From Cytophagaceae bacterium (GTDB taxonomy: Bacteria > Bacteroidota > Bacteroidia > Cytophagales > Spirosomataceae), in assembly GCA_027488335.1 (NCBI GenBank), contig JAIYBU010000219.1, forward strand, positions 1-64,000: 64,000 bases of DNA, given 5' to 3'. Position numbers and translations under genes: made by a program. Of the stretch, positions 25,939 to 60,494 are shown piece after piece. Every line of letters starts with the position of its first letter. The stretch's first letter is position 1. A model generated the notes under the pieces. It searched no databases, had not been told where the DNA came from, and was given only the letters and a program-made list of their open reading frames with translations.

Positions 25939-26979
25939 TTATTGTTTGAGATATGTTTCTAAACGTAAAGCTACATTTTCTCTGATATTCATCCAAAAAA
26001 GATTTATATCAGCCACGTGCCAAACCTTTGTGTTCAAAAAAAATCGACCTCTGACATAAGGCTTATTTATCCATAACATTCCTTGATGTACTTGTGCATC
26101 GGCCGCTTGCTTCACAAAAGTATATTTTAGTCCAACGCCACCTTTGTTTAGTTCTTTTGGGGCAAATTCCTCATCACCTTTCCATGTAAGTGGATTTGTA
26201 CAAACGGCAGTACTAAGACCGTTTACATAGTATTCTGGTGTGAAACCTCGTGCATAAGTATTCCACGATACAAATCCACCAATTTGGTCAGCAGCATTAC
26301 TTGGTTTAATATTTTCAAAAGTATCAGGTTGGGTAGCAATACCTATTAAATATGCTTCTACCAATTGTTTTTGGAGAGGTTTGCCATCGAAAAACTCCTT
26401 TAATAATCGTTTAGCATGAACCGTTCCTTGGCTATGCGAAGCGATTATTATTGGTCGCCCTTGATTCCAATTGTTCAAATAATATTCAAAAGCAGCTTTG
26501 ATGTCAGAATAAGCCAAATCAAGGGCTTGTTTTTTATCAGCAGCATTTGGCGTTAGAAACGAATAGTAATGAGCTTGACGATAGCGTGGTGCATAAATTT
26601 TGCCCGAACCATTAAACGCTGTTGCTTGATTTAGAATCGTTGAATTATCAGTTTTCTCGTTCAACGCAGCATCATTTACATCGGCATTCCACTCATATTG
26701 ATTTTTTGGTTCATAGGTAAAAGTTGTTGGATGCAAAAAGAAAACATCGGCTTTTGCATCGCTTTGGTTATCGCTTAGATTCGACTTCTGAGGCGTTCTA
26801 TCTGCGGCATCGCTCTTAGTTGGTAATGCTGCCCACGCATCATTCTGTGTATAATCTGGAACTTTAGGAGCGATTTTTAAGTCAAAATGGGTTTTCAAAA
26901 CTACCGAGTTTTGAGCGGCAATTTTAATCGAAAAAATACTTGCAAAAGAAAAAATTGATAGAAAAATCGTATTTCGCAT
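25939..26979 (-). CDS. DUF3089 alpha/beta-hydrolase (lipase-like), exported
   Basis: A 346-residue protein with a signal peptide (FLSIFSFASIFSIKIAAQ). The DUF3089 domain has ADVFFLHPTTF, APRYRQAHYYSF and the nucleophile elbow IIASHSQGTVHAKRLL, in which the Ser of HSQG would be catalytic. The family is annotated as lipase-like but few members are tested. It is divergent from the TonB receptor at 27111, and the operator at 27027-27054 lies 47 bp upstream of its start, so it may share control with that receptor. Confidence 0.88.
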   Translation of the reverse strand: MRNTIFLSIFSFASIFSIKIAAQNSVVLKTHFDLKIAPKVPDYTQNDAWAALPTKSDAADRTPQKSNLSDNQSDAKADVFFLHPTTFTYEPKNQYEWNADVNDAALNEKTDNSTILNQATAFNGSGKIYAPRYRQAHYYSFLTPNAADKKQALDLAYSDIKAAFEYYLNNWNQGRPIIIASHSQGTVHAKRLLKEFFDGKPLQKQLVEAYLIGIATQPDTFENIKPSNAADQIGGFVSWNTYARGFTPEYYVNGLSTAVCTNPLTWKGDEEFAPKELNKGGVGLKYTFVKQAADAQVHQGMLWINKPYVRGRFFLNTKVWHVADINLFWMNIRENVALRLETYLKQ

Positions 26980-27026: not shown

Positions 27027-27054
27027 AATAATAGTATGCTTGCATATTATTATT
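27027..27054. promoter_or_regulatory. 28-bp inverted-repeat operator, copy 1
   Basis: Half-sites AATAATAGTATGC (27027-27039) and the complement of GCATATTATTATT (27042-27054) match in 12 of 13 positions around a central TT. The left 20 bp, AATAATAGTATGCTTGCATA, recur exactly on the other strand at 59643-59662. It overlaps the -33 element of the TonB receptor promoter, as expected for a repressor site. The shape suits a TetR-type dimer. Confidence 0.75.
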
Positions 27055-27070
27055 TTCTTTTCTAAGTTTG
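27040..27070 (+). promoter_or_regulatory. Promoter of the TonB receptor gene
   Basis: TTG (27040-27042), a 20-bp spacer, then TAAGTTTG (27063-27070), a full TAnnTTTG match. The TTG is at the centre of the operator palindrome. The start site would be near 27077, about 35 bases before the ATG. Confidence 0.65.
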
Positions 27071-27110: not shown

Positions 27111-30100
27111 ATGTACAAACTTTATGTTAAAAAATGTTTGCTCGGAATATGCTGCTTCCTAATAACTCAGCTTTCCTTTGCTCAAACAAAAGTGTCTGGA
27201 ACAATTACAGACGCCACAACTAAAGAACCACTAATCGGTGTTAGTGTTCAGGTAAAAGGAAAAGTCGTAGGAACTATCACTAACGCAAAAGGGGAGTTTT
27301 CTTTTAATGTCTCTACTCCTCCACCATTTACACTCCTCATTTCATCAGTAGGATACCAAAGTCAAGAGATGAATGTTTCTGGAAACAATGCTTCTATCAA
27401 TATTGCTTTAAAAGAGCAAGCAATTTTGGGGCAAGAAGTTGTTGTATCGGCTTCGAGGGTTGAAGAATCGGTTTTGAAATCGCCAGTTGCTATCGAAAAG
27501 ATGGATATTCGTACCATTCGTGAGACAGCCTCTCCATCCTTCTACGATGCTTTGGCCAACATGAAAGGTATTGACATGACAACACAGGGTTTATTATTTA
27601 AATCAATCAATATGCGTGGTTTTGGTGCTACTGGAAATCCACGTACTGTTCAAATGATTGATGGAATGGATAATCAAGCTCCAGGCTTAAATTTTCCTGT
27701 TGATAATATCGTGGGTATGCCCGAACTTGATGTTGAAAATGTTGAAGTTTTACCAGGTGCAGCTTCGGCTCTTTATGGCCCTAACGCTATCAATGGTTTG
27801 GTTTTGATGAATAGTAAAAGTCCATTCCTCTACCAAGGTTTAAGTGCAACCGTAAAAACGGGTATAATGAGTGCCAGCAACCGTGATGTTGTAAACACAC
27901 CGATGGCTGACTTTTCAATGCGTTATGCCAAAGCTTCAAAAAATAACAAATTTGCATTCAAAGTAAACTTAGCTTACATCACAGCGAAAGACTGGCAAGC
28001 AACCAACTATTCTAACCTAAATCTTGGTGGAGTAGAAACGGGTTCAAGAGGTGCAGGAACAAAGACCGATTACGACGGTATGAACATCTATGGTGACGAG
28101 GTTCAAGCAAATATGACTACCGTTGCTAATGGTTTGATTGCGGCTAAACTATTGCCCTCAGCTGCTTTAGGTTTGATACCAAACGTAAACGTTAGTAGAA
28201 CTGGCTTTTATGAGAAAGACATGGTAGACTATAATACGAAAAGCTTTAAAACAAATTTAGCTGCACACTACCGTATCAATGATAAAGTTGAGTTGGTAGG
28301 ACAAGTAAATTATGGTTATGGAACAACTGTTTATACAGGTACAGGTAGATATTCTCTTCGTAACTTTAACTTAACACAAGCAAAAGTTGAACTAAGAGGT
28401 GATAACTTTACTTTAAGAGCATATACTACTCAAGAGCGTTCGGGTCAATCATATACTGCTGGTTTAGCTGCGGTTGCGATGCTAAATAGTATTAAACCAC
28501 ATGCAACATGGTTTGGCGAATACGTAGGAGCATTTGCGGCTGCTCGTGGTGCGGGACAGTCAGAAGAACAAGCTGGAATTACGGCAAGAGGTGTTGCTGA
28601 TAAAGGAATGCCAACACCTGGAACAGCAGAATATACCACATTGCTCAATAAATTCCGTGATGCAGCCATTGTTGATGGCGGTGGTGCTTTCTTAGATAAA
28701 ACTAATATGTATCATGCAGAAGGTGTTTATAACTTCAAAAATCAAATTAAATTTATTGATTTATTGGCTGGAGCAAACGTTCGTCAGTACAGCTTACGCT
28801 CAAACGGAACTTTATTCTCAGATAAAAAAGAAGGGCGTTCAGGAGTAATTCCAATCAATGAATATGGTGCTTTTATTCAGGGTGCTAAAAGTTTATTCAA
28901 AGACCACTTGAAACTATCGGCTTCGATTCGTTATGACAAAAGCCAAAACTTTGAAGGCTTCTTTACGCCGAGATTATCAGCAGTTGCTTCATTTGGTCAA
29001 CAAAACTTCAGAATTTCATACCAAACTGGTTACCGTATCCCGACGACTCAAAATCAATACATTGACTTGAGAACACCAGCAGGTACTTTGATTGGTGGAC
29101 AACCAGAGTTTGATACAAGATATAACTTAGCTAATGGTGTAGATTTAGCAACATTGACCGATTTTTCAAGAAATCCTTCAAAGTATATTACAGCTGATGT
29201 TTTGGCTAAAGCACAGGCTTATGCTACTGCGGCTGTCACTGCTCAAGCAACACCACAAATTACAGCAGGTGTAAATGCTGCGATTCAGCAAAGTGTATTA
29301 CAAGCTGTTACTGCTGGTGCTACTCAACAAATCCAAGCGGGTGTATTAGCTGCTGTAACTCAACAAATTACAGCGGGTGTAACTGCTCAAGTAAATGCTG
29401 CGGTTGCAGCAGGGCAATTAGCAGCTTCGGCGGCAGCAGCAGCAATCCAAGCGGGTGTAGCTCAACAATTAGCTTTACCAGCCACACAAACAAGCATCCA
29501 AGCTGCGGTTCAACAACAATTAGCTTTACCAGCCACACAAGCAGGTATTCAAGCAGGTGTTGCGGCTAACTTACCAGCGGCTATTGCGGCTAACTTCCAA
29601 CCAGCATTCAATGCAGAATTAGCAAAAGCACTTGCTGCCAATGTACCAGGCGTAACTGCACAAGTTGCTCCTGCTTACGGATTAGCAGCATTGCCTAAGT
29701 ACAAAGCGGCTGCATTGAAACCAGAAAAAATCTCTTCTTATGAAATTGGTTATAAAGGTTTGATTGCTAAGAAATTATTTATCGACTCGTATTTCTATAC
29801 AAGTAAATATACCAACTTCATTGGTGGAACTGCGATACTTGTGCCAACAGCAGCAGCGGGTCCTGGTTTACCAATCGAATCTGGTCTTGGAGGTGCATCT
29901 ACTCGTTCAGCATATTCACGCGTAGCAAATTCTAAAGAAAAAATTACTGCTAACGGATTTGCTATCAGTGGTAATTATTCTTTATCAAAAGGATTTAATG
30001 TTGGTGTAAATTATGCTCAAAATAACTTGAAAGGCTTTACTGCAAGCCCAGAGCAACAATATGCTGGTTATAACACACCAAAAAATCGTTATAACTTAAG

Positions 30101-30413
30101 TTTTGGTAAACGTTTGAATAGTGGGGATAAATTTGGTTTCAATGTAAATCTAAGACACCAAGATGAGTTTGTATGGCAAGCAAGTTTCAATCAACCAACT
30201 ACAACTGGGGTTGCTTCATTTACAAACACAATCGTACCAGCTGTAACTACATTTGATGCACAAGTAAGCTATAAATTAGCTTCGATGAAATCTATCATCA
30301 AATTAGGTGGTACTAACATCGGTGGTAAACCATACATTCAAGCATTTGGTAGTGCAGCCGTTGGCTCGATGTATTACGTAGCTATCACATTCGACGAATT
30401 ATTGAATAAATAG
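27111..30413 (+). CDS. TonB-dependent receptor with Ala/Gln-rich insertion
   Basis: An 1100-residue outer membrane receptor. Signal peptide ends SFAQ; a carboxypeptidase-regulatory-like domain follows (VSGTITDATTKEPLIGVSV, 27-105), then the plug (about 125-235, with NMRGFGATGNPRTVQMIDG) and a beta-barrel to the C-terminus. Residues about 695-865 are a low-complexity stretch of Ala, Gln, Val and Thr (ITAGV, QQLALPATQ units), in what would be an extracellular loop. There is no SusD partner, so this is a single-protein TonB importer, not SusC. Operator context suggests a lipid-related substrate; this is inference. Confidence 0.92.
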   Translation: MYKLYVKKCLLGICCFLITQLSFAQTKVSGTITDATTKEPLIGVSVQVKGKVVGTITNAKGEFSFNVSTPPPFTLLISSVGYQSQEMNVSGNNASINIALKEQAILGQEVVVSASRVEESVLKSPVAIEKMDIRTIRETASPSFYDALANMKGIDMTTQGLLFKSINMRGFGATGNPRTVQMIDGMDNQAPGLNFPVDNIVGMPELDVENVEVLPGAASALYGPNAINGLVLMNSKSPFLYQGLSATVKTGIMSASNRDVVNTPMADFSMRYAKASKNNKFAFKVNLAYITAKDWQATNYSNLNLGGVETGSRGAGTKTDYDGMNIYGDEVQANMTTVANGLIAAKLLPSAALGLIPNVNVSRTGFYEKDMVDYNTKSFKTNLAAHYRINDKVELVGQVNYGYGTTVYTGTGRYSLRNFNLTQAKVELRGDNFTLRAYTTQERSGQSYTAGLAAVAMLNSIKPHATWFGEYVGAFAAARGAGQSEEQAGITARGVADKGMPTPGTAEYTTLLNKFRDAAIVDGGGAFLDKTNMYHAEGVYNFKNQIKFIDLLAGANVRQYSLRSNGTLFSDKKEGRSGVIPINEYGAFIQGAKSLFKDHLKLSASIRYDKSQNFEGFFTPRLSAVASFGQQNFRISYQTGYRIPTTQNQYIDLRTPAGTLIGGQPEFDTRYNLANGVDLATLTDFSRNPSKYITADVLAKAQAYATAAVTAQATPQITAGVNAAIQQSVLQAVTAGATQQIQAGVLAAVTQQITAGVTAQVNAAVAAGQLAASAAAAAIQAGVAQQLALPATQTSIQAAVQQQLALPATQAGIQAGVAANLPAAIAANFQPAFNAELAKALAANVPGVTAQVAPAYGLAALPKYKAAALKPEKISSYEIGYKGLIAKKLFIDSYFYTSKYTNFIGGTAILVPTAAAGPGLPIESGLGGASTRSAYSRVANSKEKITANGFAISGNYSLSKGFNVGVNYAQNNLKGFTASPEQQYAGYNTPKNRYNLSFGKRLNSGDKFGFNVNLRHQDEFVWQASFNQPTTTGVASFTNTIVPAVTTFDAQVSYKLASMKSIIKLGGTNIGGKPYIQAFGSAAVGSMYYVAITFDELLNK
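29463..29564 (+). repeat. 51-bp tandem duplication inside the receptor's A/Q-rich region
   Basis: Two 51-bp units start at 29463 and 29514 and are identical for their first 27 bases, then diverge. They encode 17-residue units beginning QQLALPATQ. Shorter repeats of the ITAGV or IQAGV type precede them from about 29260, and together they suggest growth by slippage. Confidence 0.8.
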
Positions 30414-57364: not shown

Positions 57365-59164
57365 TTACATCACCACTTCTTTCTCGGTCATAATCGTGAG
57401 CACTTCTTCATCCATCAATCGAGTGGCCAAACCTTGCGTTTTCGGAATCTCGTAGTGGAAGAAATACTTCATCGTATGAATCTTACTTTCATAAAATTCT
57501 ACATCATCCGCATTATCCAACGAAACGATTAACTTCTGTTTAGCCACTACTGCTTGTTTAAGCCATTGCCACGCCACCACATTTAAGCTAAACATCTCTA
57601 TATAAAGTGTCGCATCTGACAAGAAACGCTCCACATCACCCGTTCCAGCAATTCCCAGCAAGTGCATAGTCACTTTTTGGAGGCGTTCGCCTTCGTCTTT
57701 TAATGAAAGTGCATAACGCTTCAAATCATCGTATTGCAAAGCCGCCATTACGGTTTTACCAACTTCTTGGGCGAGCAACATGGTTGCCTTCCCTCCTGCC
57801 ATTGGTACTTTACGGCCCAGTAAATCTTGCGACTGAATACCGGTTGTTCCCTCATAAATTGGCGTGATACGAATATCTCGGTAATATTGTTCGACAGGAA
57901 AATCTTCCGTAAAACCATACCCACCAAAGCATTGCACTGCATCGCTTATTGCCTTCATACCATACTCACAAGGGAAAGTCTTAGCTATTGGTGTCAGCAA
58001 TTCGAGCATCAAATGTGCCTTTTCTTTTTCTTCTGGGTCATCAGAGGCTTCCGAAAGGTCAAAATATTTAGAAGTTTCGAGCAAAAGCGACAACGAACCT
58101 TCAACGACAGCCTTCTGAAACAACAACATTCGCTTCACATCTGGATGCTGAATAATCTGAATCTGCGGAGCATCCAATGCATGTTTCTGATTTAATCGAC
58201 GGCTCTGTGGACGCTCTTTTGCATACTCAAGTGCTGCATAATAAGCAGCCGATGCTATTGACGCCCCCGTGATACCCACGCCTATACGAGCCTCGTTCAT
58301 CATCTGAAACATATAATTCAAGCCCTTATTTGGTTCGCCAACCAAATATCCGATACAATCATCGTTTTTATCACCAAAACCCAAGTGCATAGCTGGTACG
58401 CCTTTCTGCCCGAGCTTATGGTAAATTCCCATTGAGGTAACATCATTATCGGTGCCATCTATTCGGAATTTTGGAATCACAAACAACGAAATACCCTTCG
58501 TACCAAGTGGAGCTCCTTTAATACGACCAATGAATAGGTGAATCACATTATCGGTAGCGTCGTGGTCACCCGCCGAAATAAAAACTTTCTGTCCACGAAT
58601 TTTATACGTTCCATCTTCCAAAGGTTCGGCCGTAGAAGTAATATCCGATAACGAACTTCCTGCCTGTGGCTCGGTTAGGCACATTGTACCCTGCCATTTT
58701 CCCGAAATCATATTTGGAATATAAGTATCTTTCAATTCTTGCGAACCAAAACTGGCAATCAGACGAGCCGCTCCTGCCGTAAGACCCGTAAACATCATTC
58801 CGTTATTGGCCGACATCAAAATATACCCCAAAATACTCGTAATCGTTACGGGCATTTGAGCTCCACCATTTTCGTAATCAAAGTCTGCTCCAATAAGACC
58901 TGATTCGCCGAGAGCTTTCAAGTAATCTTTAATGGCTGGATGAACCGTTACTTTTCCATCTTTAAGTTCGGGTTGATTTTTATCGACGTCTTTCACAAAC
59001 GGAAACATGAGATTGTCAGCAATTTGGGTTGCTGCATCAATCGTCATGTCGAAAGTTTCTTTATTGTGGTCGGCATAGCGAGCGTGTTGCGTCAGCGTTT
59101 CTGCCTCATGAACTTCATAAAGCAAGAAGTCCACATTTCTCTTATTAAAATAGTTCTTTGCCAT
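57365..59164 (-). CDS. Acyl-CoA dehydrogenase with C-terminal extension
   Basis: A flavoenzyme for fatty-acid beta-oxidation, 599 residues from MAKNYFNKRNVDFLLYEVHE at 59164. FAD/substrate segments are MCLTEPQAGSSLSDI and YKIRGQKVFISAGDHD; the dehydrogenase C-terminal fold has CFGGYGFTEDFPVEQYYRD and ITPIYEGTTGIQSQDLLGRK, in which the Glu of YEGT is the likely base. The extra 120-residue C-terminal helical part is that of the long (DmdC/AcdA-like) class. It follows the SCP2 gene on the same strand, 100 bp apart, so both are likely read from the promoter near 59635. Confidence 0.94.
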   Translation of the reverse strand: MAKNYFNKRNVDFLLYEVHEAETLTQHARYADHNKETFDMTIDAATQIADNLMFPFVKDVDKNQPELKDGKVTVHPAIKDYLKALGESGLIGADFDYENGGAQMPVTITSILGYILMSANNGMMFTGLTAGAARLIASFGSQELKDTYIPNMISGKWQGTMCLTEPQAGSSLSDITSTAEPLEDGTYKIRGQKVFISAGDHDATDNVIHLFIGRIKGAPLGTKGISLFVIPKFRIDGTDNDVTSMGIYHKLGQKGVPAMHLGFGDKNDDCIGYLVGEPNKGLNYMFQMMNEARIGVGITGASIASAAYYAALEYAKERPQSRRLNQKHALDAPQIQIIQHPDVKRMLLFQKAVVEGSLSLLLETSKYFDLSEASDDPEEKEKAHLMLELLTPIAKTFPCEYGMKAISDAVQCFGGYGFTEDFPVEQYYRDIRITPIYEGTTGIQSQDLLGRKVPMAGGKATMLLAQEVGKTVMAALQYDDLKRYALSLKDEGERLQKVTMHLLGIAGTGDVERFLSDATLYIEMFSLNVVAWQWLKQAVVAKQKLIVSLDNADDVEFYESKIHTMKYFFHYEIPKTQGLATRLMDEEVLTIMTEKEVVM

Positions 59165-59264: not shown

Positions 59265-59576
59265 TTACATCAAGCCCAACATTTTAGCATATTTCATCAT
59301 TGCTCCAGGATTAGATAGTTTTAGTTTGCCCATCATCATGGCCATCATTGGGTTCATATCACCCGTTGCAATTTTCACAAAATCATCAGCATCGGCTTTT
59401 ACTACGCACTCGGCTGTTCCTACGAATCCATCCACAAATTCAGCTTTTCCATCAGCCACTACCATTGAGTAATCCGCACCGCCACCAAAATCAAAATGTA
59501 GTGTAGTGGTTACACCATCAATATCTGCCGCTGTTAGTCTCGAAGCTGTATTCTGTAAATATTCTTTTGCTGTCAT
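59265..59576 (-). CDS. SCP2 sterol-carrier-domain lipid-binding protein
   Basis: A 103-residue single-domain SCP2 protein from MTAKEYLQNTASRLTAADID at 59576. Family features: VTTTLHFDFGGGADYSMVVADG, AECVVKADADDFVKIATG and the C-terminal helix NPMMAMMMGKLKLSNPGAMMKYA that lines the hydrophobic cavity. It binds fatty acyl-CoA or similar lipids in the cytoplasm. With the acyl-CoA dehydrogenase it forms a lipid unit, and the shared operator lies 58 bp upstream. An open frame of 22 further codons upstream does not look coding. Confidence 0.9.
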   Translation of the reverse strand: MTAKEYLQNTASRLTAADIDGVTTTLHFDFGGGADYSMVVADGKAEFVDGFVGTAECVVKADADDFVKIATGDMNPMMAMMMGKLKLSNPGAMMKYAKMLGLM

Positions 59577-59634: not shown

Positions 59635-59662
59635 AATAACATTATGCAAGCATACTATTATT
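59635..59662. promoter_or_regulatory. 28-bp inverted-repeat operator, copy 2
   Basis: Half-sites AATAACATTATGC (59635-59647) and the complement of GCATACTATTATT (59650-59662) agree in 11 of 13 positions around AA. On the minus strand its first 20 bp equal those at 27027. The 20-bp core ends 66 bases before the SCP2 start, against 64 for the TonB receptor. No clean -7 box follows here (TAACTTTC is the closest). Confidence 0.7.
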
Positions 59663-59885: not shown

Positions 59886-60494
59886 TTGAAAAATAAAGCA
59901 TTTAAAAACACGCCTGATGAGGAGTTGGTTCGACTATACGTTGAAACCCAACGAAATCTTTATTTTGAAGAACTCTACGACCGTTACGTTGATAAAGTTT
60001 ACAGGAAATGCCTTTCCTTTGTAAAAAACGAAGCACAAGCCGAAGATTTCACACACGACATATTTTTGCGTTTAGTCCTCAAAATCGGAGGGTTTAAAGA
60101 GCAGGCGAAGTTTTCAACTTGGCTGTATTCGATTACCTACAATTATTGTATGGACCAAATGAGGATTGCAAAAAAACAAGCCGAAACCGCTCTCGACGAA
60201 AACTTCGACCTCGAACAAGAAGACGACGACTCTGAATTGGTAGAAAGTCAAGTACTGGATTTGAAAAAAGCCTTGCAGAAAATCGACCCAGATGAGCGTG
60301 CCATCTTGTTGATGAAATATCAAGACGATTTTAGTATTAAAGAAATTGCCGATACGTTCAATATCAGTGAAAGTGCGGTAAAAATGCGTTTGATGCGTAC
60401 GAAAGAAAAATTGAGAAAGATTTACACCGAAAATGTTGTTTTCTTCTTAATTATTATCGCTAAAGCCGTTTGGTTTTGGAAAAATAACAAATAA
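59886..60494 (+). CDS. ECF-type sigma factor with a C-terminal membrane segment, TTG start
   Basis: A 202-residue sigma-70 family factor. Region 2 is LYFEELYDRYVDKVYRKCL with AEDFTHDIFLRL and TWLYSITYNYCMDQMR; an acidic linker (about 108-122) follows; region 4 is LPDERA-like (IDPDERAILLMKYQDDFS) with IKEIADTFNISESAVKMRLMR. The last 20 residues, from Asn183, form a hydrophobic helix with aromatic residues and a basic end (WFWKNNK), which is unusual for sigma factors. TTG at 59886 is the only suitable start. A 55-residue ORF follows after 23 bases; no anti-sigma gene is recognised. Confidence 0.9.
   Translation: MKNKAFKNTPDEELVRLYVETQRNLYFEELYDRYVDKVYRKCLSFVKNEAQAEDFTHDIFLRLVLKIGGFKEQAKFSTWLYSITYNYCMDQMRIAKKQAETALDENFDLEQEDDDSELVESQVLDLKKALQKIDPDERAILLMKYQDDFSIKEIADTFNISESAVKMRLMRTKEKLRKIYTENVVFFLIIIAKAVWFWKNNK

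Follow-up and report, generated by a model that had tools for sequence, protein, structure and literature searches.

The window, by which we mean the whole stretch of 64,000 nucleotides that was analysed, contains two exact copies of the 20-mer AATAATAGTATGCTTGCATA, one at 27027-27046 on the plus strand and the other at 59643-59662 on the minus strand. The first is part of a predicted operator placed between a TonB receptor gene and a divergent DUF3089 gene, and the second is part of one that precedes an SCP2/acyl-CoA dehydrogenase unit. The features are listed below.

25939-26979, minus strand: DUF3089 protein, 346 amino acids, divergent from the receptor gene across operator 1
27027-27054, no strand assigned: predicted operator 1, 28-bp inverted repeat with 12 of 14 pairs, core TATGCTTGCATA at 27034-27045
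27063-27070, plus strand: putative -7 element TAAGTTTG of the receptor promoter, 20 bp past the central TTG of operator 1
27111-30413, plus strand: TonB-dependent outer-membrane receptor, 1100 amino acids, with CarbopepD_reg_2 and Plug domains
57365-59164, minus strand: acyl-CoA dehydrogenase, about 600 amino acids from an ATG chosen by eye (a longer form from a TTG start is possible), second gene behind operator 2
59265-59576, minus strand: SCP2 sterol/lipid-carrier domain protein, about 103 amino acids from the ATG at 59576, first gene behind operator 2
59635-59662, no strand assigned: predicted operator 2, 28-bp inverted repeat with 11 of 14 pairs, core at 59643-59654
59886-60494, plus strand: sigma-factor-like ORF, recognised by eye, divergent from the SCP2 gene

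When up to three mismatches to the 20-mer were allowed, the window gave 3 matches against 0.01 expected from shuffled sequence, the third match being copy 1 read on the opposite strand. A first-pass annotation of this DNA had held that such a 20-mer pair is improbable by chance, and these counts bear it out. The spacing that it reported is also found, with 64 bases from the 20-mer to the receptor ATG at 27111 and 66 bases from copy 2 to the SCP2 ATG at 59576. The 28-bp inverted repeats that it described are present, but both are imperfect. Overall, our analysis suggests that the repeated 20-mer is very probably a real palindromic gene switch.

Analysis of the source assembly (5.0 Mb in 240 contigs) with the pattern TAGTATGCnnGCATACTA at up to two mismatches revealed 14 sites, against one for the reversed pattern used as a control. 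All 14 sites are found 32-150 bp before a start codon and they serve 13 transcription units, the unit on contig C73 having two sites. The units, named after their contigs, are as follows.

C2: acyl-CoA dehydrogenase
C40: CCG-domain Fe-S-type protein
C60: DUF4442 protein, two small ORFs, 3-hydroxyacyl-CoA dehydrogenase and thiolase, with a second site at four mismatches
C73: acyl-CoA dehydrogenase
C85: thiolase
C109: fatty-acid hydroxylase family protein
C120: MarR regulator, the sole regulator among the 13 units
C186: 4Fe-4S protein
C190: enoyl-CoA hydratase/3-hydroxyacyl-CoA dehydrogenase
C210: EtfB-EtfA
C218: zinc-type oxidoreductase
Window: TonB receptor
Window: SCP2-acyl-CoA dehydrogenase

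Beta-oxidation or ETF genes occur in seven of the 13 units (C2, C60, C73, C85, C190, C210 and SCP2), which is the outcome that had been anticipated for a genome scan, namely sites in front of fatty-acid degradation genes. None of the 13 own-genome units contains a recognised acyl-CoA synthetase. The sequence does recur in the genome, as a dispersed repeat or a chance pair without regulatory role might, and nothing more speaks for such a reading. We reject it as practically negligible in probability, since 14 of 14 sites stand just upstream of genes and these are related in function, rather than in the unrelated positions that had been named as the mark of a dispersed repeat, and the sites are conserved across genera. 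At the level of sequence the operators and their target genes are evident. The CCG and 4Fe-4S genes are separate in this genome, with one operator each (L053:6988-7782 and L054:6362-7705), and in two relatives at the level of the order (L424 and L426) they are neighbours under a single operator; the two proteins may each supply one half of an ETF-linked electron-transfer unit.

The best-known regulators of fatty-acid catabolism belong to the GntR and TetR families. Bacillus FadR and PsrA are TetR-type fatty-acid regulators with palindromic operators, and FadR of Escherichia coli, of the GntR family, is a global repressor of fatty-acid catabolism that is released by acyl-CoA. The system proposed here would resemble E. 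coli FadR as a global catabolic repressor that acyl-CoA frees, and it differs from it in the protein family. The first-pass annotation had proposed a TetR-type repressor, and the regulator loci of the genome were therefore compared: seven with TetR_N and 12 that are MarR-like by PF12802 alone, five of the 12 being under the Pfam cut-off. Each locus was scanned for the site over about 1.5 kb on either side. Among all of them, the MarR gene on contig C120 (L058:7638-8108; PF01047, 48.5 bits against a cut-off of 24.6) was alone in having a site at up to three mismatches. This site, CAGTATGCCTGCATACTG, is a perfect palindrome with two mismatches and is found 42 bp before the ATG. The best site at any other MarR-like locus has four mismatches; none of the seven TetR_N loci has one at up to three mismatches within about 1.5 kb, the best having five, which sets the present system apart from the known TetR-type fatty-acid regulators.

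The C120 protein is 99% identical to its ortholog in Emticicia aquatilis, which places the source organism close to Emticicia within Spirosomataceae. The AlphaFold model of that ortholog (pLDDT 87.9, pTM 0.74) returned MepR, MarR, CouR and FabT among the top Foldseek matches. The regulator accordingly has a MarR domain and, as modelled, the MarR fold, with helical arms around a wHTH. A MarR-type regulator is most likely the protein that binds the operator, judging from the distribution of sites.

Comparison of 150 genomes of the family revealed a MarR match in 149 (at 1e-49 or better in 148) and at least one site at up to two mismatches in 148, the number per genome being 0-16, compared with 0-4 for the control pattern. 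At up to three mismatches, a site was found upstream of 25 of the 30 fetched MarR orthologs, including L095 with its short flank (one mismatch), and five of the 30 were without it; in a set of 25 named orthologs that overlaps the 30, the figure was 22. The same threshold gave a site upstream of 19 of the 30 fetched SCP2 matches. Conservation of the site before orthologous genes, which had been proposed as a check, is thus observed, and together with the genome-wide palindrome scan it strengthens the earlier suggestion that one palindromic operator is common to the receptor and the fatty-acid oxidation genes. A few genomes depart from the pattern: G129 has four sites and no MarR match, G092 has two sites with no more than a weak MarR match, and in G009 and G083 a MarR match is present but no site at up to two mismatches. 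Three Siphonobacter loci have a 3-hydroxyacyl-CoA dehydrogenase gene 0.5-0.6 kb downstream of the MarR gene, with one small ORF (DUF2721 in L132) between them; two of these loci, L133 and L134, have no recognisable site at the MarR gene.

Of 197 sampled Bacteroidia genomes with a completeness of 90% or more, 98 have a MarR match at 1e-10, the own genome included, and the best MarR locus from each of the 97 others was analysed. The exact core TATGCnnGCATA occurs within 200 bp upstream of the MarR match in 83 of the 97, against none of the 97 for the reversed control; the remaining 14 have one mismatch (five) or two or more (nine). Fifty-nine permuted palindromes gave at most one exact occurrence each at the same 97 loci, with a median of zero. 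In 90 of the 97, a 3-hydroxyacyl-CoA dehydrogenase homolog follows on the same strand no more than 3.5 kb downstream. The 97 MarR-positive genomes contain 140 sites against 49 for the control and 99 MarR-negative genomes contain 26 against 51, counts that leave out the own genome, include the regulator's own sites and ignore kinship; the chance level is about 0.5 site per genome. Outside the core, the arms of the 83 operators are AT-rich, most strongly at positions -9 and +9. The association of regulator and operator is hence apparent across the class. In the small-genome genus g13 (G012, G041, G070 and G090) the normal palindrome upstream of the MarR gene is accompanied, at a distance of about 44 bp, by a variant palindrome, TAGGATGCnnGCATCCTA, as in L196, L198 and L204.

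These results bear on the reading that an acyl-CoA sensor from the TetR family, of FadR/PsrA type, owns the operator and that the MarR gene is just another of its targets. Genes of fatty-acid metabolism are under TetR regulators elsewhere, an example being FadR of Sulfolobus acidocaldarius (PMC6449355, in part), which belongs to a different protein family from the regulator found here, and the genome does have its seven TetR_N loci. However, no TetR locus has the site within about 1.5 kb, the MarR gene itself has it in 83 of the 97 class genomes, and G149 combines a MarR gene and four sites with no detectable TetR protein; TetR matches are present in 19 of 20 small genomes, G149 being the one without and just 86% complete. 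The TetR assignment of the first-pass annotation is consequently rejected, and we regard a TetR owner of the operator as very improbable.

Sites away from MarR genes were followed in 35 regions outside the own genome (36 regions were fetched in all) by reading the nearest genes, and 14 of the 35 loci fit the regulon. These comprise EtfBA (seven), short-chain dehydrogenases (two), DUF4442 proteins (two), the Fe-S pair (two) and one Oxidored_FMN/Pyr_redox enzyme, which we take to be of the 2,4-dienoyl-CoA reductase type. Two TonB receptors (L432 and L436), one GMC oxidoreductase and one KAS III-like enzyme were also found. The neighbours of nine of the remaining 17 loci were scanned with Pfam. 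L419 (G303) has a two-mismatch site 18 bp upstream of a gene of the ceramidase family (PF04734), a type of lipid-cleaving enzyme, and in L434 a site faces an acyltransferase but lies within a predicted ORF. Many of the 17 sites are probably due to chance, since 15 of the 35 distant loci have no recognised lipid link and six of the 17 have the site centre inside a predicted ORF or at its border. The MarR match of G271 has neither a dehydrogenase neighbour nor a close site, and two sites in this genome (L416 and L417) precede secreted-looking proteins.

Promoters of Bacteroidota follow a -33/-7 consensus in which the -7 element reads TAnnTTTG. Judged by this consensus, the earlier claim that copy 1 overlaps the -33 element is plausible: the centre of the operator 1 palindrome is TTG at 27040-27042, followed by the putative -7 element. 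No exact TAnnTTTG occurs between operator 2 and the SCP2 start. In the own genome TAnnTTTG begins 21-23 bp past the operator centre at four sites (22 bp at the window receptor); the distance is 18 bp for the MarR gene and 7 bp for C40. At four further sites (C60 proximal, C73 proximal, C190 and C210) it stands just before the operator, so that the start site would fall inside the operator. The remaining own sites have no exact TAnnTTTG in the stretches inspected. In both C60 and C73 two operators 44-45 bp apart have one TATATTTG between them (L049:8540-8601 and L050:7584-7646), an arrangement that suggests two dimers on one promoter.

In 38 of the 83 class MarR promoters a TAnnTTTG starts between +14 and +23 relative to the operator centre; counted by position, this is 38 of 830 in that interval against 12 of 14027 elsewhere. 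TTG occupies the operator centre in all six promoters with a spacing of 20-23, which is what a centre that also serves as the -33 element would predict. Such a double role may also account for the 20-base agreement between the two window copies, although at the SCP2 promoter an exact -7 element is missing. Where promoters are recognisable, the operator appears mostly to cover the -33 element or the start site, a geometry that can be read off the promoters themselves.

We consider it very likely, with a probability of roughly 0.88, that both window copies are operators of one beta-oxidation regulon under an autoregulated MarR repressor, with acyl-CoA probably as the releasing ligand. A homodimer of the winged-helix protein encoded on C120 would read the palindrome with its AT-rich flanks. 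At recognisable promoters the dimer would cover the -33 element or the start site and for this reason would block transcription, that of its own gene included; repression is what this promoter geometry points to. When fatty acids enter the cell and are activated, acyl-CoA or a beta-oxidation intermediate would probably bind the MarR protein and free the operators, a ligand suggested by the pathway and by precedent. Acyl-CoA dehydrogenases, hydratase/3-hydroxyacyl-CoA dehydrogenases, thiolases, ETF and their likely Fe-S partners would then be switched on and, in this genus, the TonB-dependent receptor as well.

This proposal of an acyl-CoA-released MarR repressor of beta-oxidation follows from the MarR domain and fold together with the precedents of CouR and FabT. 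CouR of Rhodococcus jostii is a MarR-family protein that shares the fold (Foldseek match 5cyv, 19-21% identity). As described in excerpts of the CouR paper (PMC4737184), its inverted-repeat boxes overlap the -35 element, that of its own promoter included, which is similar to the operator here; one box is proposed to serve divergent promoters; and p-coumaroyl-CoA abolishes binding, so that a CoA thioester plays the part proposed for the ligand here. The same excerpts also mark the difference, in that the CouR box is cATTGA-5 bp-TCAATg and its pathway is hydroxycinnamate catabolism, against TATGCnnGCATA and mainly beta-oxidation in the present system, which does not qualify as CouR. FabT of streptococci and enterococci, according to the partial text of PMC13046290, is a MarR protein encoded first in its own fatty-acid operon, which it represses, and autoregulated, but it controls synthesis and acyl-ACP tightens its binding, whereas the targets here are catabolic. 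The MarR protein scores 22.9 bits against the NCBIfam FabT equivalog, below the cut-off of 200.

The FabT precedent raises the possibility that the same operator and MarR protein work in the opposite sense, as an activator or with an acylated ligand that strengthens DNA binding. FabT heads its operon and binds its operator better with acyl-ACP (PMC13046290, in part), FabT-DNA is among the fold matches, and activators exist among MarR proteins (PMC5487221, in part). With catabolic targets, however, ligand-tightened repression would shut the pathway when its substrate is present, and the position of the operators at recognisable promoters is that of repressor sites. We therefore regard this alternative as unlikely and retain the acyl-CoA-released repressor. 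Among the matches listed from open-access full-text literature, the titles and opening lines of the abstracts describe neither this operator nor a Bacteroidota MarR regulator of beta-oxidation; subscription papers are mostly outside this literature and some queries were perhaps too strict.

The receptor is the member of the regulon for which the site is most patchy. Its score against the SusC/RagA profile TIGR04056 (107.1 bits) is below the cut-off of 368.25. A site is found 61-63 bp before the receptor gene in 11 of the 11 genomes of the genus sampled. In a first set of 30 receptor loci, 11 have a site at up to three mismatches, ten of them from the genus and one (L143) with the site at a different position; four g31 loci have four mismatches, three of these with an exact core. 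A second set of 20 further matches added three (L381, which is from the genus, L383 and L393), and 11 of the 14 receptor loci with a site belong to the genus itself. A receptor of 37% identity in G211 (L436) has a two-mismatch site about 170 bp upstream, with one mismatch in the core, which could be due to chance. Within the genus, footprinting of the receptor promoter is uninformative because promoter and leader are largely as conserved as the operator. In L432 (G021), from another genus, a perfect operator is found about 140 bp before a SusC-like TonB receptor, and a different TonB receptor seems to have joined the regulon there.

The DUF3089 protein presumably has a hydrolase fold and is possibly a co-regulated hydrolase. 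A DUF3089 homolog adjoins the receptor gene in 24 of the 30 loci of the first set, and in G327 (L266/L293) such a homolog stands opposite the MarR gene, with the operator between the two.

Chelates or glycans are the usual cargo of TonB receptors. The receptor site could hence be real and the cargo something other than lipid, the receptor having been captured for supply of, for example, iron or a cofactor to the Fe-S and ETF proteins. This reading, which we hold to be a serious minority possibility, accords with the usual cargo of these receptors, with the small share of receptor loci having the site and their concentration in one genus, and with the perfect site before a different SusC-like receptor in L432. 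It sits less well with the retention of the site at the receptor throughout the genus genomes sampled, with the weaker site of the distant homolog L436 and with the common DUF3089 neighbour. Lipid import is made more likely by the companion genes in the regulon, and it stays a prediction since most of the receptor homologs analysed from outside the genus lack the site.

We tentatively propose, at somewhat less than even odds, that a MarR-type master repressor of beta-oxidation working through this palindrome is ancestral to much of Bacteroidia, and that in Emticicia it also drives a dedicated TonB importer of exogenous acyl lipids together with a divergent DUF3089 hydrolase, a route of fatty-acid uptake unlike FadL. 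For a large bacterial class, the analysis names a specific MarR protein together with a simple operator and a list of targets, all of which can be tested directly. Poorly annotated genes under the same switch (the DUF4442 protein, the Fe-S proteins beside ETF and DUF3089) gain candidate functions, and one subfamily of TonB receptors gains a hypothesis on its substrate, the cargo of such receptors being usually difficult to deduce from sequence.

Residues from about 740 to 865 of the receptor form an Ala/Gln-rich low-complexity insert that is unaligned with the 37%-identical L436 receptor, and many family alignments are interrupted near these residues.
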